DNA of 64,000 nt from Polynucleobacter sp. (GTDB lineage: Bacteria; Pseudomonadota; Gammaproteobacteria; Burkholderiales; Burkholderiaceae): contig JAHEBW010000044.1 in the NCBI GenBank assembly GCA_024642065.1, forward strand, positions 1 through 64,000, written 5' to 3'. The first letter of the stretch is position 1. Each line of letters starts with the position of its first letter. Shown piece by piece: positions 46,221-58,544 of the stretch. Below the pieces are notes generated by a model. That model saw only the letters and a list, made by a program, of their open reading frames with translations, was not told where the DNA came from and did no database searches. The translations under genes were made by a program, and so were the position numbers.

Positions 46221-47848
46221 ATGCCAACCTACACAGATAATAATTCTGACAATACAGCCTTGAAAAATAATCAATTTTTTGTTAGTAAATTTTTTGATGT
46301 TTATGTATTGTTTTTGATTTTTCTAAGTAAGGAAATTAATTCAGCGGAAGTAATTTGCTCCATTTTAGGCGAATCTTCGCCATTCCAGACAGTTAATCCA
46401 AATTACGAGGATGCCTTAGGTTGTCTGGGGTTAGATCGCAAAATTTATTGCCCCCAAAAAATTCATAAAAACACTTTTTGTGAGTCGAATGATCCTAATA
46501 ATGATGAAGATCTAGCTCTAAGCGATGACATTGATTTCCTTGAAGCGATCCTTGATAAGAATTCACTATGGTTTAATTATGTCGATATTGAATTAAATTC
46601 TGGCATTACATTAAATCTAGAAACATTGGTTTCTGAAGAGTTTTTTGGGGAAGTGCAAACTTTACCGTGGATAGAGACTTTGACGGTACTTGGTGCCATC
46701 ATGGTAAACCAAATAATATCAAACTCTAGGGACTCTGATACAAGTAAAAATCTACTAAATGAGCCAATGGTCAATGCGACTGACTTGATCGATTTAGATC
46801 TCGGTAAGTCAGATATAGTTGATGCATCAAGGATCTTGACAATTACCGGGAGTGCCTCTGACATTCTTTTTGTTGTTCAGTCATCTGGGATCACGACCTC
46901 TAGTACGTATAACGCGACAGTCTCTAATACAACGGTAGCTGCGGCTGATTTGAGTTTGATTGATGCAGACACGTCTGGCACGGTTGATGCTACAGCAGCG
47001 ACGACGATCACGGGTACGGCTGCGGAGCTGGTAACTGCTATCCAGTCATCTGGGATCACGACCTCTAGTACGTATAACGCAACCACTTCTAGTGGTACTA
47101 CAACTGTAGCGCAGGCGAATACGATGGATGGTGACACAACAGGGATTGTGACGGCGACGATATCGGATGGTGATTTGAGTACCTTGGGTGGTTTAACGGG
47201 TACTGGTAATGCTTACACGATCACGGTGACGGATACGACGGTAGCTCAGCTGACTTGAACACTTTGGATGGTAAGACGACGGTGGCTGTAGGAGCGACAG
47301 CGGCGACGACGATCACGGGTACGGCTGCGGAGCTGGTAACTGCTATCCAGTCATCTGGGATCACGACCTCTAGTACGTATAACGTGACGGTGAATGATGC
47401 TGTATCGGTGTCGGATGCAAACACGATAGATGCTGATACGACAGGGACTGTGACGGCGACGATATCGGATGGTGATTTGAGTACCTTGGGTGGTTTAACG
47501 GGTACTGGTAATGCTTACACGATCACGGTGACGGATACGACGGTAGCTGCAGCTGACTTGAACACTTTGGATGGTAAGGTGTTTGGTGTCTTGAACGTTG
47601 CGCTGGCCGTTAGTCTTAGCGGTAGTGATGATGATATTTATCAGTTAATAAACTCTATTGAGAGTTTAACTAGTTCTACATACGATGTATACATTGATGG
47701 TGAGGGAGTTGCCGTTTCTGCAGCATTTTTGCGAGCCATCGACGAAGATACAGCGGGATCAATTTTTGTATCAAATAATGATGGTTTAATTGGTTTGGCA
47801 GCAGACATTAATAGCGTAATGGCTTCAAATTTTATTTACTTTGTATAG
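46221..47848 (+). pseudogene. Repeat-rich secreted-type protein, broken by a one-base deletion
   Basis: The track shows 46221-47258 and 47255-47848 in different frames, but together they make one protein. An internal DNA repeat shows why: the second copy reads GTAGCTGCAGCTGACTTG (from 47543), while the first (from 47241) lacks one G after 47246, which shifts into an early TGA. The protein starts MPTYTDNNSDNT, has a hydrophobic stretch at about 27-40, cysteines at about 50-90, and then Thr/Ala-rich units such as TITGTAAELVTAIQSSGITT and TATISDGDLSTLGGLTGTG. It ends MASNFIYFV. I infer a surface or secreted protein; the family is not firmly recognised. Confidence 0.75.
46998..47578 (+). repeat. 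Near-perfect tandem DNA repeats of about 300 bases inside the repeat protein gene
   Basis: An 81-base block at 46998-47078 recurs identically at 47303-47383, and part of it also occurs at about 46878-46914. A 100-base block at 47147-47246 recurs identically at 47449-47548, and the match continues on the far side of the missing G. Such identity between copies favours recombination and also assembly errors. Confidence 0.9.
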
Positions 47849-47930: not shown

Positions 47931-49259
47931 TTATACGAGGTTATTTTTACTTAGTGTAATTGCAACCTCAACCCCGGATGTTTTACCTTGAATAGGTGAA
48001 TTAATTTCCATCGTTGCATTGATCTGTTCTGCAAGCATTTGAGTTATGGATAATCCAATTCCTAATCCAAATTTTCTGCTACCCCTCTCGTAACGAGTCA
48101 GCATTTTTGCTATCTGTTCTGCAGTAAGGGTTGGGTGTTCGTTTTGTATTGTAATAGTTCTATTTGGTCCAATTACAACGTTGATTGGAGTTTCTTTGTC
48201 AGAGTGCTGATTGGCATTCTCAAGTAGGTTTAACAAAATAATTCCTAAAACTTCTTCATCACCTAAGCACTCTTCAATTGGAGATAGGATGCTGATGTTG
48301 TAGTACCTTTTATTTTTTATTTTTAATGTTTCAATGGTATGACGTGTAACTAACTCAATATTTATTGGATATAGATTCTGAATTTGATTGGTTTCAGCTC
48401 GAGTTAGTTGTAAAAACTTATTAACTAAATTTTCAAGCGCATCTAAACTTGAATTTAATTTAATTAATCTTACTAATACTTCATCATTTTTCAATCCTAT
48501 CCTTGCAACCTCTAATTGTGCTTTCGCAACAGATATAGGTGTTCTGAATTCGTGAGCAATGTTTTCTGAAAAATTTTTTTCCTTTTCAAGAATGCTTCTT
48601 AGTCTAGTAATTAAATAATTAACAGCGTTACCTACTTCAGCAATCTCTCTAGGCAGGTTTTTTATTGCAATAGGTTTTAGATCTTGAATAGATAGTTTTG
48701 AGATTTCTTGACTGTACTTTTGAATAGTTTCACTAAAATTGGAAAGCCCTTGGTAAACAGACCAATATATTAGAGGTATTAATAAAATTAATGGCCATAG
48801 TAGGACTAAATATATTTCATTAATAATTTCTTCACGGTGAGCTATTGGTTCAAATACATAAATCAGGTAGTCTCCATTTTCAGTGCTTGAGCCAAACACC
48901 CTCATGCCTTCCTTGTCGCTGAATCCTTCCTTTAACATTTTTTGATTATTCATGGGAGACCGATGTGATCTGACTAATATCTGGCCAAACTTATTTTGAA
49001 TTTGATAGCTTAGATTGTCATCAGTCAATGGGAGTGGCACGAGTTCAATATCAATGTTTTCTCTATTTCGATTTTCAATGTCAATGATGGCAAGTGGTAG
49101 GATGCGCTCTGCAGTTTCTTTCAAAGACTCATCCAAAAAGGCATACGTTTTTTTTTCAATTACTTTAAATGTGATGATCAAAACCACAAACCATAAAAGT
49201 ACTGATATCAGAATTATTCTTAATGCAATGTTGTGTTTTAGGTTAATTTTTACTCGCAT
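47931..49259 (-). CDS. Sensor histidine kinase (QseC/PmrB-like)
   Basis: A 442-residue membrane kinase. Two membrane helices (about 11-31 and 150-168) flank a periplasmic sensor of about 120 residues. The phosphoacceptor block is ENIAHEFRTPISVAKAQ with His236; the ATP-binding domain shows LLNLLENANQHSD (N-box) and FGLGIGLSITQML (G-box). It overlaps the response regulator gene by ten bases, so the two form one unit. Its signal is unknown; the predicted regulon (thiol-redox and DUF3570 genes) hints at envelope redox or metal stress. Confidence 0.92.
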   Translation of the reverse strand: MRVKINLKHNIALRIILISVLLWFVVLIITFKVIEKKTYAFLDESLKETAERILPLAIIDIENRNRENIDIELVPLPLTDDNLSYQIQNKFGQILVRSHRSPMNNQKMLKEGFSDKEGMRVFGSSTENGDYLIYVFEPIAHREEIINEIYLVLLWPLILLIPLIYWSVYQGLSNFSETIQKYSQEISKLSIQDLKPIAIKNLPREIAEVGNAVNYLITRLRSILEKEKNFSENIAHEFRTPISVAKAQLEVARIGLKNDEVLVRLIKLNSSLDALENLVNKFLQLTRAETNQIQNLYPINIELVTRHTIETLKIKNKRYYNISILSPIEECLGDEEVLGIILLNLLENANQHSDKETPINVVIGPNRTITIQNEHPTLTAEQIAKMLTRYERGSRKFGLGIGLSITQMLAEQINATMEINSPIQGKTSGVEVAITLSKNNLV

Positions 49260-49909
49260 AATGTTTTGATTCTATATCCAAGACCTCTAATTGTTTGAAT
49301 TAAGTCTGGACCCATTTTTTTTCTAAGAGAACTAATGTGAACTTCGAGTGTATTGCTGTCAATAAAATTTTCATTTGCATATACGGCATCTGTTAGTTGA
49401 TTTTTATTGACAATATGGTTTGGAGTTTGACAGAGTCTTTCAAGAATTAGCCATTCTTTATTAGTTAAATTAAGAGGCTCATTGTCAAGGGTCACTAGCT
49501 TAGCTATTAAATTAATTTCAATATCATTTATTTGTATTGATTTATTCCCACTCAATCTTCTTTGTATGGCGTTTATTCTCGCTAATAACTCCGAAAGTTC
49601 ATACGGCTTAGTAAGATAATCATCTGCACCCATATTTAATCCTTCAATACGGTCTTCAATTTGGTGTTTGGCTGTTGTGATGATGATTGCTGGCAAATAT
49701 TTTTTCCTTTTTGCATGCTGAATTAAATTCATACCATTACCATCTGGTAAGTTGATATCTAAAATAATTGCAGAATACTCCATTGCATCTAGATGTTTTT
49801 TTGCATCTTTTAGGTTGCTGGCAATTGAACCCTGGTGCTTGAATGCAATAAGATAACTCTGAATTGCATCTGCAAGATCTGCGCTGTCTTCAACAATAAG
49901 TACATTCAT
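49250..49909 (-). CDS. OmpR-family response regulator (QseB/PmrA-like)
   Basis: A 219-residue transcription factor. The receiver domain has the phosphorylated Asp51 in IILDINLPDGNG and Lys101 in DDYLTKPYEL. The C-terminal winged helix shows LTNKEWLILERLC and NTLEVHISSLRKKMG, typical of OmpR/PhoB. The direct repeat CTTAAG-N5-CTTAAG, 25 bases upstream of its start, resembles PmrA/QseB boxes, and a similar box precedes dsbD, so it likely controls itself, tlpA-apbE and dsbD. Confidence 0.94.
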   Translation of the reverse strand: MNVLIVEDSADLADAIQSYLIAFKHQGSIASNLKDAKKHLDAMEYSAIILDINLPDGNGMNLIQHAKRKKYLPAIIITTAKHQIEDRIEGLNMGADDYLTKPYELSELLARINAIQRRLSGNKSIQINDIEINLIAKLVTLDNEPLNLTNKEWLILERLCQTPNHIVNKNQLTDAVYANENFIDSNTLEVHISSLRKKMGPDLIQTIRGLGYRIKTLCE

Positions 49910-49996: not shown

Positions 49997-50506
49997 ATGA
50001 AAAAATTATTGCAAGCACTACTTGTGTCATTTTCGATTATTACCTGTATCCAGTATTCTGGGAACGCGTTGGCAGTTAGTCCCGGTGAGATGGCTCCTGA
50101 CATCAATCTTACGGGAAGTGGTTCTGAATCAGTATCTTTAAATCAATACCGTGGGAAAGTAGTCTATTTGGATTTTTGGGCATCCTGGTGTGGCCCTTGT
50201 AGACAGTCATTTCCTTGGATGAATGCGATGCATGATAAATATGCAGGTAAAGGTTTGGTTGTTTTAGCGATCAATCTAGATGGAAATCAAACTGATGCCC
50301 AAAAGTTTTTGCAAGAGAATCCAGCTCGTTTTGCTTTAGGATTTGACCCAAAGGCTCGAACTCCTAGATTATTTGGTGTTAAGGGAATGCCTACAAGTTA
50401 CTTGGTGGACCGTCATGGTAGAGTGGTCGATGTTCATGTTGGTTTTAATGTTGATAAAAAAGATGAGTTAGAGTTAAAACTTATTAAGTTGCTCGAAGGA
50501 AGGTAA
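49997..50506 (+). CDS. TlpA-like periplasmic thioredoxin-fold protein
   Basis: A 169-residue thiol-disulfide protein. A signal peptide covers about residues 1-26 (ending NALA). The mature domain begins PGEMAPDINLTGSGSE and has the active site FWASWCGPCRQSF (Cys65, Cys68), then KGMPTSYLVDRHGRV with the cis-proline loop. TlpA/ResA-type proteins reduce periplasmic disulfides and receive electrons from DsbD or CcdA; a dsbD gene lies 2.4 kb downstream under a similar operator. It is first in the operon tlpA-DUF4266-DUF3570-apbE. Confidence 0.9.
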   Translation: MKKLLQALLVSFSIITCIQYSGNALAVSPGEMAPDINLTGSGSESVSLNQYRGKVVYLDFWASWCGPCRQSFPWMNAMHDKYAGKGLVVLAINLDGNQTDAQKFLQENPARFALGFDPKARTPRLFGVKGMPTSYLVDRHGRVVDVHVGFNVDKKDELELKLIKLLEGR

Positions 50507-50508
50507 TG

Positions 50509-50745
50509 ATGATCAAAAAATATCACTTTTACAAATGGATTATTTTGTTGTTTTTTGTGAATATGTATGGTTGTGCAACAACTATACAATCTGTTCAGCC
50601 ATGGGAAAAAGGATATCTTGCAAAACAAGAAATGCTGTTGGAGTCTGATTCGATGGATGCAGCATTTGTTGAGCACACATACAGCAGTAAGGAAGCATCA
50701 TCTGGCGGAGCTGGTGTTGGTGGTGGTGGTTGTGGTTGTAATTAA
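50509..50745 (+). CDS. DUF4266-type small lipoprotein with Gly/Cys-rich C-terminus
   Basis: A 78-residue protein. A short signal peptide ends at a lipobox MYGC; VQPWEKGYLAKQEM follows, and the protein ends SSGGAGVGGGGCGCN. This compact layout is that of DUF4266 proteins, which usually sit next to DUF3570 and ApbE genes. The function is unknown. The two terminal cysteines in a glycine run look suited to metal binding or disulfide exchange with the neighbouring TlpA. The ATG at 50509 fits the AAGGAAGG site best; ATG 50506 overlaps the tlpA stop. Confidence 0.85.
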   Translation: MIKKYHFYKWIILLFFVNMYGCATTIQSVQPWEKGYLAKQEMLLESDSMDAAFVEHTYSSKEASSGGAGVGGGGCGCN

Positions 50746-50768
50746 TTTAAATGACAGAAGGTGCTTTT

Positions 50769-51908
50769 ATGAGTAAAGCTAATCAAACAACAAATACAAT
50801 AATTACAAAGTCTAAAACCTTAAAATTATTAGCTGTTGCAGCTGCCAGCTTACCAATTAGTCAGATTTTACATGCTGAAGCTGTTCCTGAAAGAGCTGAA
50901 ATTGGATTTAAGTATTTAGATTATCTTGATTACCAACCTGATCAAGATCGTATTCGAATCAAAGCCCCCTCCTTAATGATTATGACTCCCATAGCTGGAG
51001 AGTGGTCATTAACTGCAACAGCTGTCACTGATAGTGTCACGGGAGCCTCGCCAAGATATCAAGATCAGCAGTTAACTAAGCTCAAAGATCGTCGTAACGC
51101 ATACACAACATCTGTAACTAGATATTTACCTCATAGCACTTATACATTGGGTGTCTCTTATAGTGGAGAGACTGATTATGTTTCTCGCGGCCAGTCGTTC
51201 CAGGCGAACTTTTCTTCTGATGATAAAAATACTACTTTGACGCTTGGTGTGGGTAATTCTAATGATGTGATATTGCCTAATCATGCCTATTTAGAGCAGC
51301 GTGAGAAAAAAGATGTTGTTGACGGAATTCTTGGTATTACCCAAGTATTTACACCTTACGATATTGGTCAAGTAACATACAGACACTCTTCTGGAACGGG
51401 ATATTTCTCAGATCAATATAAGCAGTTTGATATCCGACCTACAAACAGAATAAGTGATTCTATTTTTTTACGATGGAACCATCATTTTCCTGGCGCCGAT
51501 GGAACCTTAAGAAGTTCCTATAGATTTTATAAGGATAATTGGCAGGTTAAGTCTCATACTCTAGGGTTTGAATACATACAAAATTTAGGCTCTGGTTGGA
51601 CGGTAACGCCATTGCTTCGCTATTATTCTCAAACAAAGGCTAGTTTTTATCAGGAAACCGCTGACTTCGCGATTTTAAATAACGTACTGGATTCTGGAAA
51701 TTATATGTCAGTGGATCAACGTTTGTCTGCTTTTGGTGCGGTGACTTACGGAGCTAAATTAAGCAAATGGATTGGTAAAGATTTTCTAGCCGATTTTAAG
51801 TTTGAACAATATGAGCAACGTGGCAGTTGGGCGTTGAGTAATGGTAATAACTTGCTTTCCCCTTTTAAGGCTCGTAGTTATCAAATTGGTGTCAAATATT
51901 TCTTCTAA
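50769..51908 (+). CDS. DUF3570 outer-membrane beta-barrel-like protein with flavinylation-like motif
   Basis: A 379-residue exported protein. The signal peptide ends near ILHAEA. The rest alternates beta strands with the spacing of a barrel and ends YQIGVKYFF, with a terminal Phe. AVTDSVTGASPRY at about residues 86-98 matches the ApbE target pattern Dxx(S/T)GA(T/S), and an ApbE gene follows nine bases downstream. I therefore infer a covalently FMN-carrying outer-membrane protein, which has not been shown here. The ATG at 50769 has GAAGG at good spacing; the track start 50751 adds six residues. Confidence 0.82.
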   Translation: MSKANQTTNTIITKSKTLKLLAVAAASLPISQILHAEAVPERAEIGFKYLDYLDYQPDQDRIRIKAPSLMIMTPIAGEWSLTATAVTDSVTGASPRYQDQQLTKLKDRRNAYTTSVTRYLPHSTYTLGVSYSGETDYVSRGQSFQANFSSDDKNTTLTLGVGNSNDVILPNHAYLEQREKKDVVDGILGITQVFTPYDIGQVTYRHSSGTGYFSDQYKQFDIRPTNRISDSIFLRWNHHFPGADGTLRSSYRFYKDNWQVKSHTLGFEYIQNLGSGWTVTPLLRYYSQTKASFYQETADFAILNNVLDSGNYMSVDQRLSAFGAVTYGAKLSKWIGKDFLADFKFEQYEQRGSWALSNGNNLLSPFKARSYQIGVKYFF

Positions 51909-51916
51909 GGATTGCA

Positions 51917-52810
51917 GTGAATGCTGAATTTGCTAGCCATGTTTTTAGATCCATGGCTAGCCGTTGTGAGATTTGTATTGCTGGCTTAAATAGTAAAAAT
52001 ATTCAGGATATTTTTATTTCAGGTGAGTCAGAGGTTAGGCGTATTGAAAAAAAATACTCTCGTTACTTGAATGAAAGCGTTATTTCAAGGATCAACGCTT
52101 CAGCTGGGAAAAATTGGCTATTTTGTGATGAAGAAACTAATCAATTGCTAGACTATACGGAATCTATGTATCAAATTAGTGGAGGACTATTTGATATCAC
52201 ATCAGGTGTTTTACGTCGTGCTTGGGATTTTTTTGAGTCAAAATTGCCTGACCCAGTGATTTTGCAGGAGTGTTTGTCAATCGTTGGGTGGCGAGATGTG
52301 GTTCGAGCCAACAATGCAATTTTCCTAAAAAATCATGGTATGGAGATTGACTTTGGAGGGGTTGCAAAAGAATATGCAGCTGATCGTTGCGCTCAAGTTT
52401 TATTAGATCAGGGCGTTACCAGTGGTTACGTCAATTTGGCAGGTGATATACGCATATTAGGCCCCAAGCCTGATAACACAGCCTGGTATATAGGGATTCA
52501 ACATCCTCGGGCTCGTTCAGGTGAGATGGTTGCTTCTGTTCCAATTGAGAGTGGTGGATTGGCAACTAGTGGTGATTATGAGAGATATTTTGAGCTAGAT
52601 AATAAGCGCTACTCTCATTTATTAAACCCAAAGACTGGCTACCCAAATCACTCATGGCAATCAGTTAGTGTATTGGCACCATCAACCCTCATTGCTGGTA
52701 CATACAGCACCATTGCGATGTTGATGGATCACTCAGCCATTGATTTTTTGAGAGAATCGAATTTACCCTTTTTTGCAATTGATTCAAGTGGAAAACATTT
52801 CACTAAATAG
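51917..52810 (+). CDS. apbE: FAD:protein FMN transferase (ApbE)
   Basis: ApbE attaches FMN covalently to Ser/Thr of target proteins, using FAD and Mg2+. The 297-residue protein shows YSRYLNESVISRINAS, FDITSGVLRRAWDF, EIDFGGVAKEYAADRC, VNLAGDIRILG and YSHLLNPKTGYP, all family motifs including the FAD-binding Gly-Asp block. It starts at a GTG after AAGG and has no signal peptide or lipobox, unlike most ApbE proteins, so its compartment is unclear. Its likely target is the DUF3570 protein encoded just upstream. Confidence 0.9.
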   Translation: MNAEFASHVFRSMASRCEICIAGLNSKNIQDIFISGESEVRRIEKKYSRYLNESVISRINASAGKNWLFCDEETNQLLDYTESMYQISGGLFDITSGVLRRAWDFFESKLPDPVILQECLSIVGWRDVVRANNAIFLKNHGMEIDFGGVAKEYAADRCAQVLLDQGVTSGYVNLAGDIRILGPKPDNTAWYIGIQHPRARSGEMVASVPIESGGLATSGDYERYFELDNKRYSHLLNPKTGYPNHSWQSVSVLAPSTLIAGTYSTIAMLMDHSAIDFLRESNLPFFAIDSSGKHFTK

Positions 52811-52816
52811 AGAATT

Positions 52817-52833
52817 CTTAAGGTCAGCTTAAT
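52817..52833 (+). promoter_or_regulatory. PmrA/QseB-like operator upstream of dsbD
   Basis: CTTAAG, GTCAG, CTTAAT: the same pattern and spacing as the box upstream of tlpA, 34 bases before the dsbD start. TATATT at 52844-52849 or TAACTA at 52852-52857 could be the -10. The shared box suggests that dsbD and the tlpA operon answer to the same response regulator. Confidence 0.65.
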
Positions 52834-52867
52834 TTTCACATTCTATATTGTTAACTATAGACATTTA

Positions 52868-54679
52868 ATGGTTAATAATATGAAGCAAATTAAGAAACTC
52901 CTCCTTGTATTTTTGGTCTTTATACCTCAATTAATTTGGGCTTCAGACAATTTTTTGTCTCCAGAGCAGGCATTCAGTGTTAAATGGCAGATCAATACTG
53001 ATTCAGTAGTTGTTAATTTTCAGATTGCTGAAGGTTATTATTTGTATAAGTCAAGTATCTCAGCTAAAGCTGGAAAAGATTCTGAAAGTATTCAATTGAA
53101 GTTGCCTCAGGGTACTAATATTTATGACAAGATTTTTAATAAGAATTTAGAGGTTTATCCCACTAGTTTTTCTTTTGAGATTCCGAACACGTCTTATACA
53201 AAAAATATTTCATACATTGATTTAACATATCAAGGATGCGCAAAAGAGGGTTTGTGTTATCCACCAGAAACAATGCGTATTAGTTCTATCGGAAGACAAG
53301 GGCAGGTCAATAATTCTGATGTGTTTCAACCCCAAAATAACAATGTAGCATTATCTAATTCTGGCGAAGCTTCTGACCCAACATTCATTCAGAGTATTTT
53401 GGTGTCAGATAAGATTTGGAAAATTATTATAAGTTTTATTGTTTTTGGAGTGTTATTGTCATTCACGCCATGTGTTTTACCGATGATACCAATCTTATCT
53501 TCCATAATCATTGGTAAGTCGGGTGATGTTGATAGAAAAGCTTCGAGATCCCACCCAACTCTAATGGCTGTCTCATATAGCGCTGGCATGATAACTGTTT
53601 ATACAGGTATGGGTATTGTTGCTGGCTTATTAGGTGAAAGCTTGTCAATTTATTTGCAGCAACCATATGTGCTAATTACATTCGCAACGATGATATTCAT
53701 TTTTGGATTATCTATGCTTGATGTAATTAAATTTGAAATGCCGGGCTTTCTCCAAAATAAGCTTCTCGATGTTAGTTCTAAAGCATCTGGAGGACGGGTT
53801 CTACCTGTATTTATTATGGGGGCGGTTTCATCTCTGATTATTGGCCCCTGTGTTGCCGGACCATTGGCTGGAACTCTTATATACATTGGGCAAACCAAAG
53901 ATGTGATGGTAGGTGGGGCTGCATTATTTTCAATGGCTTTGGGTATGAGCGTTCCCTTAATTTTGACTGGAATGTCTGCGAATCATTTTCTTCCAAAGGT
54001 GGGACCTTGGATGATTCAAGTAAAAAGTTTTTTTGGTTTTATGTTGTTTGCAATTGCATTATGGATGCTTGTGCCAGTAATACCGGTAAGTTTATTGATG
54101 TTCTTGCTGGGGTTGTATGCAATATTAGCTGCAACATATCTAGGGATATTTAAGAAAATATCAGCGGAATCAACATTCTTAGAGAAGCTATTAAAAATAT
54201 CATCTGTAATGTTTTTTTTCATAGGCATTTCTCAGTGGGTGGGACTTGCCGCAGGAAACGAAAACATTATTAGACCACTAAGTCAGATTGCAATAGTAAA
54301 AGATAGTAATATTCTCATGGAATCTAGAACCCAGTCTGTAAAGTCAGTCGCAGAATTAGATCATCTAATCAAAGTAAGTAAGCAGCCTATAATTTTAGAC
54401 TTCTATGCTGATTGGTGTGTTTCATGTAAGGAGTTGGAGGTTAAAACTTTTGCAGATGATCGCGTTATAAATGCTCTAGAAAATTTCAAAAAAATTAAAG
54501 TTGATGTGACGCAGATCAATGTTGACTCAAGAACACTGCTCAAAAAATATGAATTATATGGACCGCCTGCCATACTATTTGTGAGTAGTGAGGGCAAGTT
54601 GATAAATAGCAAGAAGATTATTGGGTTTATTGAGCCTGATAAGTTAGCTAAACATTTACAGACAGTTCAAAATAATTGA
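52868..54679 (+). CDS. dsbD: Thiol:disulfide interchange protein DsbD
   Basis: DsbD carries electrons from cytoplasmic thioredoxin across the inner membrane to periplasmic thiol proteins. The 603 residues include a signal peptide (ending IWAS), an N-terminal alpha domain with the cysteine pair in YQGCAKEGLCYPPE, eight membrane helices with cysteines in FTPCVLPMIP and IIGPCVAGPLAG, and a C-terminal thioredoxin domain with FYADWCVSCKELE. All six electron-relay cysteines are present. ATG 52880 is an alternative start. Its natural client here is the TlpA protein encoded upstream. Confidence 0.95.
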   Translation: MVNNMKQIKKLLLVFLVFIPQLIWASDNFLSPEQAFSVKWQINTDSVVVNFQIAEGYYLYKSSISAKAGKDSESIQLKLPQGTNIYDKIFNKNLEVYPTSFSFEIPNTSYTKNISYIDLTYQGCAKEGLCYPPETMRISSIGRQGQVNNSDVFQPQNNNVALSNSGEASDPTFIQSILVSDKIWKIIISFIVFGVLLSFTPCVLPMIPILSSIIIGKSGDVDRKASRSHPTLMAVSYSAGMITVYTGMGIVAGLLGESLSIYLQQPYVLITFATMIFIFGLSMLDVIKFEMPGFLQNKLLDVSSKASGGRVLPVFIMGAVSSLIIGPCVAGPLAGTLIYIGQTKDVMVGGAALFSMALGMSVPLILTGMSANHFLPKVGPWMIQVKSFFGFMLFAIALWMLVPVIPVSLLMFLLGLYAILAATYLGIFKKISAESTFLEKLLKISSVMFFFIGISQWVGLAAGNENIIRPLSQIAIVKDSNILMESRTQSVKSVAELDHLIKVSKQPIILDFYADWCVSCKELEVKTFADDRVINALENFKKIKVDVTQINVDSRTLLKKYELYGPPAILFVSSEGKLINSKKIIGFIEPDKLAKHLQTVQNN

Positions 54680-54688
54680 GAGATAGAC

Positions 54689-56584
54689 ATGCCATCATAT
54701 ACAGGAACGGATACAGCAAATACTTGGGTGGTGCCACGATATGGTACAAGTACATCAATTAATTATTATGATGGATTGGGTGGTACTGATACATTAAGTT
54801 TTGATCGTTTGCTTAGATCAAAATTTTCTATTACTAAAGATGCTACAACTGGTGTAATTAGTATTGACACAATTGGGACAGCAAGCTCTTATTTCCATAT
54901 GAGATTAACTAATGTGGAAATTGTCACATTTAACAAGGGTGCAGATGTTGTTAACTTATTAACAATGTTTGCAGGAGCTGCGGATACGACGGCACCAACG
55001 GTGAGCAGTTTTAGTCCTACAGATGGCGCAACAGGTGTTGCGGTGGGTAGTAATATTGTGTTGACCTTTAGTGAGGCGATCCAAAAAGGTACAACGGGAA
55101 CTATTTATTTACGTTCTGGTTCTGCAACGGGTCCGGTGGTTGAGTCATTTGGTGTAAGTAGTGGCTTAGTGACTATCTCAGGATCTACCTTAACCATTAA
55201 TCCTGCGAATAATTTATCGAATGGCACACAGTATTTTGTGACATTTGATTCGGGTGCGATTAAGGATGCTGCTGGGAATGCATACGCAGGAACTTCAATA
55301 TATGACTTTACAACAGTAGATGCTGCGGATACGACGGCACCAACGGTGAGCAGTTTTAGTCCTACAGATGGCGCAACAGGTGTTGCGGTGGGTAGTAATA
55401 TTGTGTTGACCTTTAGTGAGGCGATCCAAAAAGGTACAACGGGAACTATTTATTTACGTTCTGGTTCTGCAACGGGTCCGGTGGTTGAGTCATTTGGTGT
55501 AAGTAGTGACTTAGTGACTATCTCAGGATCTACCTTAACCATTAATCCTGCGAATAATTTAGCTTACAACAAAAAGTACTTTGTGACTTTAGATGCCGGT
55601 TCTATAGCTGATGAATCAGGAAATGCAATAAGAAAAATTGCTACTTATGATTTTAAAACTGGTAAGGATGTTAATGCTCCTGAAGTTATCAATTTTTCGC
55701 CCGAATTTCATGGTGAAAATATTTCTGAGCAGTCTGACATTGTTTTGACTTTTAGTGAAGCAATTAAATTTGGGGGAAAAGGTAAGATTCAGATAAGAAT
55801 AGGTGATGAAAATGGCGAGCTAATTTCTGTGCTGACTTCTAAGTCCTCGGGCATTTCAATTTCTGGTAATGATCTGCGCATAAGTGCTGCGGATATTTTG
55901 GAATTTCAGACAACTTATTGTGTCGTCATTCAAAATGGGTTTGTTAAGGATTATGCTGGTAATTCTTATTCTGGATCGTCAAACTATACATTTACTACTG
56001 AAAATGATGTAACAGCACCTGAACTTTTGTCAATTTCATCATCCAGCGATGATGAATATTCTCCTGGTACTCAGATTGAATTAACCTTTAGTGAGTCTAT
56101 AGTCGTTGGGGATGGTTCACTGGAGATTATTAATTCAGATCTTGGTTATTCATATTTGTTTGATTTGGGTGATGAGAATTCAATTTCGATTGACGAAAAT
56201 CAACTATCTCTTGTGCTACCTGAAGATTTGATTGGTGGTAATGAATATCACTTAATGCTTAATTCTGGAGTTATCCAAGACTTGCACTCGAATCAGCAAG
56301 CTTTAGTTGATGTATTGATATCGATCCCTTTATCCGATTCAGATGATGATTCGGATGATGATTCAGATGATGATTCAGATGAATTTGTAAGGCTTTTAAA
56401 GCTTAATTATGAAGATCTTCAGGTTGGCAAAGCAAATGGCAACTTTGAAAGGTCTAATGATGTTTACTATAAGCACACGGAAAGGTTTTTCGATACACAT
56501 GAATCAAGTGCAATTTACTCTGATTCTGCAGAGATTCAAAAAAATGATTATGATGGATTAATTAAAATACAGTTTGTGATTTAA
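54689..56584 (+). CDS. Ig-like (Big_5/SwmB) repeat protein, predicted secreted
   Basis: A 631-residue protein without Sec signal. Residues about 1-95 form a head domain starting MPSYTGTDTANTW. Four Ig-like units follow, each opening like TTAPTVSSFSPTDGATGVAV and containing IVLTFSEAI; the first two are almost identical at DNA level. Near residue 550 is an acidic (DSDD)4 stretch, then an 80-residue tail ending IKIQFVI. Big_5 units are common in secreted and surface proteins. With no Sec signal and a hydrophobic end, type I secretion is possible. It is nine bases after dsbD; the next gene shares one Ig-like unit. Confidence 0.8.
   Translation: MPSYTGTDTANTWVVPRYGTSTSINYYDGLGGTDTLSFDRLLRSKFSITKDATTGVISIDTIGTASSYFHMRLTNVEIVTFNKGADVVNLLTMFAGAADTTAPTVSSFSPTDGATGVAVGSNIVLTFSEAIQKGTTGTIYLRSGSATGPVVESFGVSSGLVTISGSTLTINPANNLSNGTQYFVTFDSGAIKDAAGNAYAGTSIYDFTTVDAADTTAPTVSSFSPTDGATGVAVGSNIVLTFSEAIQKGTTGTIYLRSGSATGPVVESFGVSSDLVTISGSTLTINPANNLAYNKKYFVTLDAGSIADESGNAIRKIATYDFKTGKDVNAPEVINFSPEFHGENISEQSDIVLTFSEAIKFGGKGKIQIRIGDENGELISVLTSKSSGISISGNDLRISAADILEFQTTYCVVIQNGFVKDYAGNSYSGSSNYTFTTENDVTAPELLSISSSSDDEYSPGTQIELTFSESIVVGDGSLEIINSDLGYSYLFDLGDENSISIDENQLSLVLPEDLIGGNEYHLMLNSGVIQDLHSNQQALVDVLISIPLSDSDDDSDDDSDDDSDEFVRLLKLNYEDLQVGKANGNFERSNDVYYKHTERFFDTHESSAIYSDSAEIQKNDYDGLIKIQFVI
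54977..55561 (+). repeat. Two 240-bp direct repeats, one mismatch, period 345 bp
   Basis: 54977-55216 and 55322-55561 are identical except for one G/A difference (about 55164 versus 55509). They encode most of two consecutive Ig-like domains (115 residues per unit). The near identity points to a recent duplication or ongoing gene conversion. Confidence 0.93.
56336..56383 (+). repeat. Four 12-bp tandem repeats encoding DSDD
   Basis: GATTCAGATGAT is repeated four times with two single-base changes, giving (DSDD)3-DSDE near the end of the Ig-like protein. Units are multiples of three, so copy changes would alter only the length of the acidic stretch. Confidence 0.9.
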
Positions 56585-56624
56585 TTTTTACGGACTTGGT
56601 TCTAGCCATAACGGTGGGAAGTTT

Positions 56625-58544
56625 ATGCGAAAAAAAGGAAAGCTATTCCTTGATGATTTCTCTGCTATAAATAGTCTTGATGATTATTTTAATGATCATC
56701 AACTATTGCGTTCGACTCGAGTTGTTAGAGATATTGCGGCATCTAATAAGACAACAGCAGTGGCAGTGATGAACCAACCTTTTTCGAGTGTTATCGATAA
56801 GGCTAGTGATGTTGACTGGGTCAAGTTAAATTTGTCTGCCGGCCATATTTATCAAATTGATTTGCGTGGCTTAGATACTGGTCATGGGACTCTTAGTGAT
56901 CCTTTTATTAAGGGAATTTATGGCTCTAATGGAAAATCCTTAGGCGCGATTTACTCTGATGATGATTCGGGTGAAGGGCGTAATGCTCACTTAACATTCG
57001 CACCAACAACGTCTGGAATTTATTATGTAGCAGCAGCGGCTTATGGAAAGCTGACAGGAAGCTATTCTCTATTGGTTAGTGAAGACTTAACTGCTCCTAC
57101 ATTGACTTCAATTCAACCAATCCAAGATGGTGCGGTAGCAGTAAATACAAATATCACTATTCAATTTTCTGAGGTTGTGGAAGCCGCTGGTGGCAGTATT
57201 CATATTATTGGCGATGATGGTCATCAGATTAATATCCTTGCTTTAGATATCAATCAAGTTCAAATTGTTGGGCAGCAAGTCACAATTAATCCCTCTATAA
57301 ATTTACATCCAGGTATAACCTATACAGTGTCATTAGATGCTAATGCATTTAAAGATTCATCTGGTAATGCCCATATTGGACTTGCTCGTGGAGTTTATGA
57401 ATTTACAACTGAAGTAAATTCAGATCTATCCAGTAGTTTGTCAGACTGGACAATAATGGTCTACATGGCTGCTGATAACGATTTGGAATCATATGCTCTA
57501 TCAGATATGAATGAATTAGAGCAAATTGCAAATTTGTCTGGTTTATCAATTACAGCGCTACTTGATCGGTCAACCAGTTATGATTCAACTAATGGCAATT
57601 GGTCTGATACTCGTGTAGGTGCAGTCCAAGCTGACTCAAGTTCAAGTGTAATTAGTTTTACCTCTGAAAATTCATGGGGGGAATTGGATACTGGTAATTC
57701 ACAAACATTGACTGACTTTATTTTATGGTCGGTCGAAAATCGACCCGCTGAAAATTATGCTCTTGTCATTTGGAATCATGGTGGCGGCATTGATGGTATT
57801 GCTTGGGATGACTCTTCAAATGGCTATTTGACCATGAATGAGATTAGTAGGTCTTTAAATACCGCTATTTCAAGCAGGACTGATGATAATCTGGATAAGT
57901 TTGGTTTGATTGCGATGGATGCATGTTTGATGGGTATGATTGAAGTTGCATACCCACTCACAGGCATGGCGGAGTATGTGGTTTTATCTGAAGAATTAGT
58001 TCCAGGCACTGGCTTTGCATATGATGATTGGTTGAGTGTATTTTCATCTTCGGATGTAACTCCTTTGCAGTTGGGTGACGCAGCATTGAATAGCTATGCC
58101 AATGAATATGCTTGGGATTCCGATATTACTTTATCAAATTTAGATATGTCACAGATGGGTGTGCTGGTTGATTCCTTGAATCAGTTTACACAGTTAGCGA
58201 TTAATGCCAACTCAAGAGACTTGAAAGCAATATCAAAAGCTGTAGCCGGTGCAAGAGATTACCCAAGTGATCAAAGTTATGATTTTGCTGATTTAGGTCA
58301 CGCTATGGATCTGATTTCTACTGGTCGAAGTGTGACGAACATGGCATTAAAAAATGCTGCAAGTGCAGTCAGTGATGCTGTCGATTTGCTAGTTCACGCA
58401 GAGGTTGGTACGGTCAGTCAAGCATCTGGAGTAAGCATTTATTTGCCTTATGGAAATGAATTAATTTCTTCTACTTATAATTCAAGTAGCTATACATTTC
58501 TTCAGGCGGTACCTCTTTGGGATGATTTTTTGAGGGTTATCTAA
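56625..58544 (+). CDS. Clostripain-family (C11) cysteine peptidase with PPC-like and Ig-like domains
   Basis: A 639-residue predicted secreted protease. Residues about 55-150 form a PPC-like beta domain (SDVDWVKLNLSAGHIYQIDL), 155-265 an Ig-like Big_5 unit like those of the preceding protein, and 275-639 the clostripain domain. The latter has IMVYMAADNDLESYALSDMN, the catalytic histidine in VIWNHGGGIDGI (His385) and the catalytic cysteine in LIAMDACLMGMIE (Cys434). No Sec signal peptide is visible; the end is DDFLRVI. C11 peptidases cut after Arg or Lys, which are scarce in the giant acidic protein. It is probably cotranscribed with the Ig-like gene. Confidence 0.87.
   Translation: MRKKGKLFLDDFSAINSLDDYFNDHQLLRSTRVVRDIAASNKTTAVAVMNQPFSSVIDKASDVDWVKLNLSAGHIYQIDLRGLDTGHGTLSDPFIKGIYGSNGKSLGAIYSDDDSGEGRNAHLTFAPTTSGIYYVAAAAYGKLTGSYSLLVSEDLTAPTLTSIQPIQDGAVAVNTNITIQFSEVVEAAGGSIHIIGDDGHQINILALDINQVQIVGQQVTINPSINLHPGITYTVSLDANAFKDSSGNAHIGLARGVYEFTTEVNSDLSSSLSDWTIMVYMAADNDLESYALSDMNELEQIANLSGLSITALLDRSTSYDSTNGNWSDTRVGAVQADSSSSVISFTSENSWGELDTGNSQTLTDFILWSVENRPAENYALVIWNHGGGIDGIAWDDSSNGYLTMNEISRSLNTAISSRTDDNLDKFGLIAMDACLMGMIEVAYPLTGMAEYVVLSEELVPGTGFAYDDWLSVFSSSDVTPLQLGDAALNSYANEYAWDSDITLSNLDMSQMGVLVDSLNQFTQLAINANSRDLKAISKAVAGARDYPSDQSYDFADLGHAMDLISTGRSVTNMALKNAASAVSDAVDLLVHAEVGTVSQASGVSIYLPYGNELISSTYNSSSYTFLQAVPLWDDFLRVI

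Follow-up and report, generated by a model that had tools for sequence, protein, structure and literature searches.

A predicted outer-membrane barrel and an ApbE clade lacking recognisable signal peptides in a DUF3570/DsbD-type flavinylation locus of Polynucleobacter

Introduction

The closest described counterpart of the locus considered here is the DUF3570/DsbD flavinylation system, in which the DUF3570 protein of Chlorobium luteolum is flavinylated by its own ApbE when the two are co-expressed in E. coli (Meheust 2021, PMC8238504). Both [S/T]GA[S/T] motif serines of that protein are modified and either one is sufficient, and the same study described the gene cluster, with its thioredoxin, DUF4266, ApbE and DsbD, together with the CXC end of DUF4266; electron transfer from DsbD to the flavin was proposed there but not measured (PMC8238504). 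In our literature search DUF3570 was named only in this paper, the text of which, searched for these points, is silent on a barrel, on which side of the membrane the motif lies and on the missing signal peptide of ApbE (PMC8238504). The idea of a flavin-bearing DUF3570 protein is therefore largely published; what is new concerns the place and timing of flavin attachment.

Here we consider a stretch of 64,000 nucleotides (contig JAHEBW010000044.1, hereafter the window) from a Polynucleobacter species, a freshwater bacterium. The window holds the same five families as the published system, clustered together, and since DUF3570 flavinylation has been published with the same cluster, the locus belongs to that known system. 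New here are a predicted outer-membrane barrel with its motif loops on the extracellular side, a clade of ApbEs that appear to lack signal peptides, and an active site in this clade that, as judged by alignment, has exchanged an Asp for Gly and gained a Glu.

Organisation of the cluster

The five genes abut one another on the forward strand (49997-54679), in the order TlpA-like thioredoxin, DUF4266, DUF3570, ApbE and DsbD. The first (49997..50506, +) encodes a TlpA/ResA-like periplasmic thioredoxin with a CGPC motif and an N-terminal signal sequence, which matches Pfam AhpC-TSA (E=4e-23) and Redoxin and scores under the cut-off of the NCBIfam ResA-like model. It is followed by a small DUF4266 lipoprotein (50509..50745, +; PF14086, E=1e-21) with the lipobox YGC and the C-terminal sequence GGGGCGCN; the Ala at position +2 of the lipobox suggests sorting to the outer membrane. 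The DUF3570 gene (50769..51908, +) starts at the ATG at 50769, which is preceded by the ribosome-binding sequence AAGGTG, and its product scores 190.8 bits against PF12094 (E=4.6e-56; Pfam gathering cut-off 25). A hydrophobic signal peptide, with predicted cleavage near HA/EAVPER, precedes the region modelled as a barrel. The fourth gene (51917..52810, +) encodes an ApbE, that is, an FAD:protein FMN transferase (PF02424, E=2e-71), here without a signal peptide; it lies directly downstream of DUF3570, as the sequence-only reading had it, although the gap from the DUF3570 stop to the GTG start of apbE is 8 bp rather than nine. The last product (52868..54679, +) is a DsbD thiol:disulfide interchange protein (NCBIfam PRK00293, 499 bits, cut-off 330; also Pfam DsbD_TM, DsbD_N and thioredoxin) and is the probable inner-membrane electron donor of the cluster.

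For comparison, 64 further DUF3570 loci were assembled, giving 65 with the window. All 65 have DUF4266, 58/65 a thioredoxin homologue and 50/65 an ApbE of the window's type, and the C-terminus of DUF4266 reads GCGC and then N, T or Y at every locus (65/65).

The flavinylation motif and its conservation

The ApbE flavinylation motif DSVTGAS occupies residues 88-94 of DUF3570, counted from the ATG at 50769, which agrees with the original description of the protein. On the DNA it spans 51030..51050 (+), and the end at 51053 quoted earlier takes in the next Pro. FMN is predicted to be attached at the last Ser of the motif, residue 94 of the precursor and 58 of the mature protein. The combination of a D-x-x-[ST]-G-A-[ST] motif with an adjacent, single-copy apbE marks the protein as a probable ApbE substrate, and the neighbouring enzyme, which is of the DUF3570 type, is the sole ApbE of the window's genome. 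A search of that genome for FMN_bind or DUF2271 substrate proteins found none.

A chance origin of the motif was considered and ruled out: shuffling of the mature window protein yields the pattern D..[ST]GA[ST] in 0.29% of cases, and a single one of 140 control ORFs, similar in length and taken from the same loci, contains it, against 46 of the 52 DUF3570 proteins encoded at apbE-bearing loci. Five of the six exceptions are off by one position and the sixth is a truncated frame. Conservation of the motif in DUF3570 proteins that adjoin apbE, the absence of which would have told against the sequence-only reading, is thus clear, and together with the published flavinylation of the C. luteolum homologue (PMC8238504) it supports the view that DUF3570 carries a flavin. 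In many relatives the motif recurs 11 or 19 residues further on, or upstream in Chlorobium, and this second copy has been gained or lost at least six times on the DUF3570 family tree. It was looked for in the window protein, which has a single motif only, whereas the C. luteolum protein has two.

The companion expectation, that the motif is lost where apbE is absent, was borne out in part. At least one ApbE is encoded in each of the 56 genomes with DUF3570 (56/56), so strict absence of ApbE does not occur, and four genomes without apbE beside DUF3570 keep the motif and encode an ApbE of the DUF3570 clade elsewhere. The part that stands concerns a sister clade of nine loci (class II) with no adjacent apbE, where the strict motif is retained in only 3/9 and replaced by SSAS or SNAS in 6/9; motif retention at apbE-linked and class II loci differs with a Fisher p = 0.001, a value uncorrected for phylogeny and drawn from loci that are not independent within a clade. 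Within class II, setting the motif against the presence of a clade ApbE gives 2/3 versus 1/6. Across the loci compared, the motif appears to track the presence of the DUF3570-specific ApbE clade. Because class II retains TlpA, DUF4266 and DUF3570 alongside its altered motifs, the window protein might likewise be unmodified, its motif merely inherited within a thiol system for which flavin is dispensable, but with the window motif intact and the only ApbE of the genome adjacent and belonging to the DUF3570-specific clade, we regard this as very improbable.

The DUF3570 clade of loci L082, L083, L087 and L089-L094 retains the thioredoxin and DUF4266, has no adjacent apbE, and combines a degraded motif with a TAS(P) element as a second one. 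At these loci an ApbE that does bear a signal is often found 6-18 kb off. It may be the enzyme that class II DUF3570 uses, but the genes lying between the two are unrelated (barrels, HZS_alpha-like, laminin-G, pirin).

A predicted barrel with the motif on the long-loop side

AlphaFold2 modelling drew on six sequences, the window DUF3570 protein and five relatives. The window protein is modelled with 16 strands (mean pLDDT 83.1, pTM 0.79) and ends in KYFF, so that its last residue is Phe. A signal peptide, an even number of amphipathic strands and a C-terminal aromatic residue are the features of an outer-membrane barrel, and a Foldseek search of the PDB likewise gave outer-membrane barrels as its best matches, which lends support to the barrel proposed in the sequence-only reading. 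As these matches are generic, with a best TM of about 0.6, the fold points to no closer function, and no solved relatives of DUF3570 were found by sequence.

Both termini of the model lie on one side, where the turns have 2-5 residues, while the loops of the opposite side reach up to 33. In outer-membrane barrels the side bearing the long loops is, as a rule, extracellular. The motif opens in strand 3 and runs into loop L2 (57-68), on the long-loop side, where its Ser (mature 58) lies. In the model of the Chlorobium DUF3570 protein (pLDDT 73) the same Ser stands at the beginning of L2, with the second motif in L1, on the same side. Family-wide, these two loops take in 79 of the 81 [ST]GA[ST] motifs (77 in L2, two in L1). 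DUF3570 is accordingly modelled, and predicted, as a 16-strand outer-membrane barrel with its motif serines in extracellular-side loops.

Given the pLDDT of <50 for loop L2 in the AlphaFold2 model, the flavin might instead fold inwards, into the lumen of the barrel. If the flavin sat in the lumen or on the periplasmic face only, the system would be a periplasmic thiol/flavin redox device that passes no electrons to the outside, an arrangement that would suit TlpA, DUF4266 and DsbD, all of which face the periplasm. It accords less readily with the placing of nearly all motifs on the long-loop side, second motifs at +11, +19 and in L1 included, and we consider it somewhat unlikely; a flavin at or near the cell surface is the reading that we prefer.

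Two variations on the domain were seen among the relatives. A Chlorobium sp. MAG carries two DUF3570 genes at one locus (L033, 1444-5097), each with a motif in L1 and in L2. At L074 and L095-L099 the DUF3570 proteins are 900-1000 residues long, with about 350-400 extra residues past the domain, for which no Pfam family match was found, and several GASP-like motifs within a long L2 insert.

An ApbE clade without recognisable signal peptides

Signal peptides of ApbEs were judged by a simple hydrophobicity rule, and none was recognisable, from any plausible in-frame start, in the 50 DUF3570-linked ApbEs or in the four clade members encoded in trans; the one formal exception, L113, owes its apparent signal to a 325-residue read-through frame. 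The linked enzymes start roughly 5 to 40 residues ahead of the conserved FxAM motif, and the 50 linked and 4 unlinked proteins form one clade (support 100/97). A lipoprotein or Sec signal is present in 34 of 35 other ApbEs of the same genomes, a count that excludes a separate eight-member group of cytosolic type and the distant class II ApbEs, most of which have one as well.

As the clade has no recognisable signal peptide, FMN is most likely attached to the unfolded DUF3570 precursor in the cytosol, ahead of Sec export and barrel folding. FAD is made in the cytosol, and a surface loop of the finished barrel is out of reach for a cytosolic or periplasmic enzyme, which makes attachment to the unfolded cytosolic precursor the simplest reading of the predicted topology as well. 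The FMN-bearing chain would then, we infer, pass through Sec. This order is compatible with the published work, in which flavinylated DUF3570 came from the insoluble pellet of E. coli (PMC8238504). The cloning strategy of that study removed the signal peptides (PMC8238504), and its result thus shows that cytosolic modification can take place, not that things happen in this order natively.

Most of the characterised ApbEs are periplasmic lipoproteins, and so are those with known exported substrates (PMC12052999); DUF3570 could be flavinylated in the periplasm before barrel insertion if its ApbE were exported by a non-classical route or from a missed upstream start. However, 0/54 clade ApbEs have a usable hydrophobic signal from in-frame starts of a fitting frame, and the window gene, which starts at a GTG behind the ribosome-binding sequence AAGGA, has no earlier in-frame ATG, GTG or TTG. 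Cytosolic ApbEs are, moreover, known from Klebsiella (PMC12052999), and periplasmic modification is in our judgement distinctly unlikely. The K. pneumoniae enzyme, which serves fumarate reductase, resembles the window ApbE in having no signal peptide, but its substrate remains in the cytosol, whereas that of the window ApbE carries a signal peptide and is a predicted outer-membrane barrel; in a recent review cytosolic ApbEs are given solely for substrates that do not leave the cell (PMC12052999). Cytosolic attachment ahead of Sec export would explain how an ApbE, usually a periplasmic enzyme, modifies a site whose final position is outside the cell.

With the periplasmic ApbE/Ftp enzymes of Nqr and Rnf (V. 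cholerae, E. coli, T. pallidum) the window ApbE shares the fold family, the Ser of TSGDY, the His and the metal-binding Thr, but it and its clade lack their lipoprotein or Sec signal and differ in the active site. In the alignment, every DUF3570-clade ApbE long enough to cover the position (the L101 sequence is truncated) has exchanged a metal-ligand Asp for Gly, and the active-site Lys is followed by Glu rather than Gly (KG to KE); the Chlorobium ApbE has both changes. The Asp corresponds to E. coli D280, which binds metal site 1 (PMC4767422), and to D285 of the V. cholerae triad (PMC12052999), the equivalence of the two being judged by counting on the alignment. The loss of Asp and gain of Glu form a correlated swap across the clade (51917-52810 in the window, loci L032-L122), and our guess is that the Glu is a relocated acidic metal ligand.

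A possible route for flavin and electrons

On balance we think it probable that the window encodes a DUF3570/DsbD-type system with cytosolic flavinylation, a flavin in a surface loop and a thiol-based route for electrons. In this scheme the clade-specific cytosolic ApbE would move FMN from FAD to Ser94 of the unfolded DUF3570 precursor, a reaction known in the homologue, with its timing inferred from the features set out above. Sec would then export the precursor and BAM would fold the 16-strand barrel, leaving the flavin in L2, predicted to be at or near the cell surface. Electrons would pass from cytosolic thioredoxin through DsbD and the TlpA-like thioredoxin to the CGC thiols of DUF4266 and from there to the surface flavin, by which an outside acceptor such as a metal, a quinone or an oxidant could be reduced; speculatively, the glycine-rich CGC end of DUF4266 may be a flexible arm that reaches into the barrel.

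The known extracellular electron conduits of Gram-negative bacteria depend, to our knowledge, on multihaem cytochromes. The window locus resembles MtrCAB-type porin-cytochrome conduits in the proposed passage of electrons at the outer membrane via a barrel, but the window DUF3570 protein has no haem motif and no cysteine, a flavin and CGC thiols would stand in for the haems, and a profile search found no cytochrome families among the cluster proteins. The narrower proposal, that a dedicated line of cytosolic ApbEs whose metal site is altered attaches FMN to an unfolded barrel precursor, and that this FMN travels via Sec and BAM to a surface loop, there forming a cytochrome-free site fed by DUF4266 thiols, is more tentative, the case for and against it being nearly balanced. 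If true, this would be a haem-free route, built on thiols and a covalently bound flavin at a surface loop, and a different solution from the cytochrome conduits.

Origin and surroundings of the cluster

Among 186 genomes of the window's genus, DUF3570 and DUF4266 were each found in one, and among 200 genomes of the family DUF3570 was again found in one; given this rarity within the genus, the cluster appears to have been acquired horizontally. Its nearest relatives are in MAGs or genomes of Rhodocyclales, Oxalobacteraceae and Chlorobium. The GC content of the cluster is close to that of the window, so the acquisition was either not very recent or from a donor of similar GC. Plasmid carriage was rejected, with just three weak Vibrio matches. 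Most of the 186 genomes of the genus encode a different, lower-scoring ApbE of about 270-300 residues, which is absent from the window's genome.

Divergent from the cluster, a sensor kinase and a response regulator are encoded on the reverse strand (47931-49909), with a GC content of 33% against 38.7% for the window; this two-component pair possibly regulates the cluster. Beyond it, a protein rich in repeats (TTITGTAAELVTAIQSSG) is spread across two overlapping forward frames (46221-47848, +), possibly as a result of a frameshift in a long adhesin-like gene. Immediately 3' of the cluster lie two genes for large proteins with Ig-like (SwmB-type) repeats (54689-58544, +), the second of which contains a clostripain-like peptidase sequence (DWTIMVYMAADNDLE).
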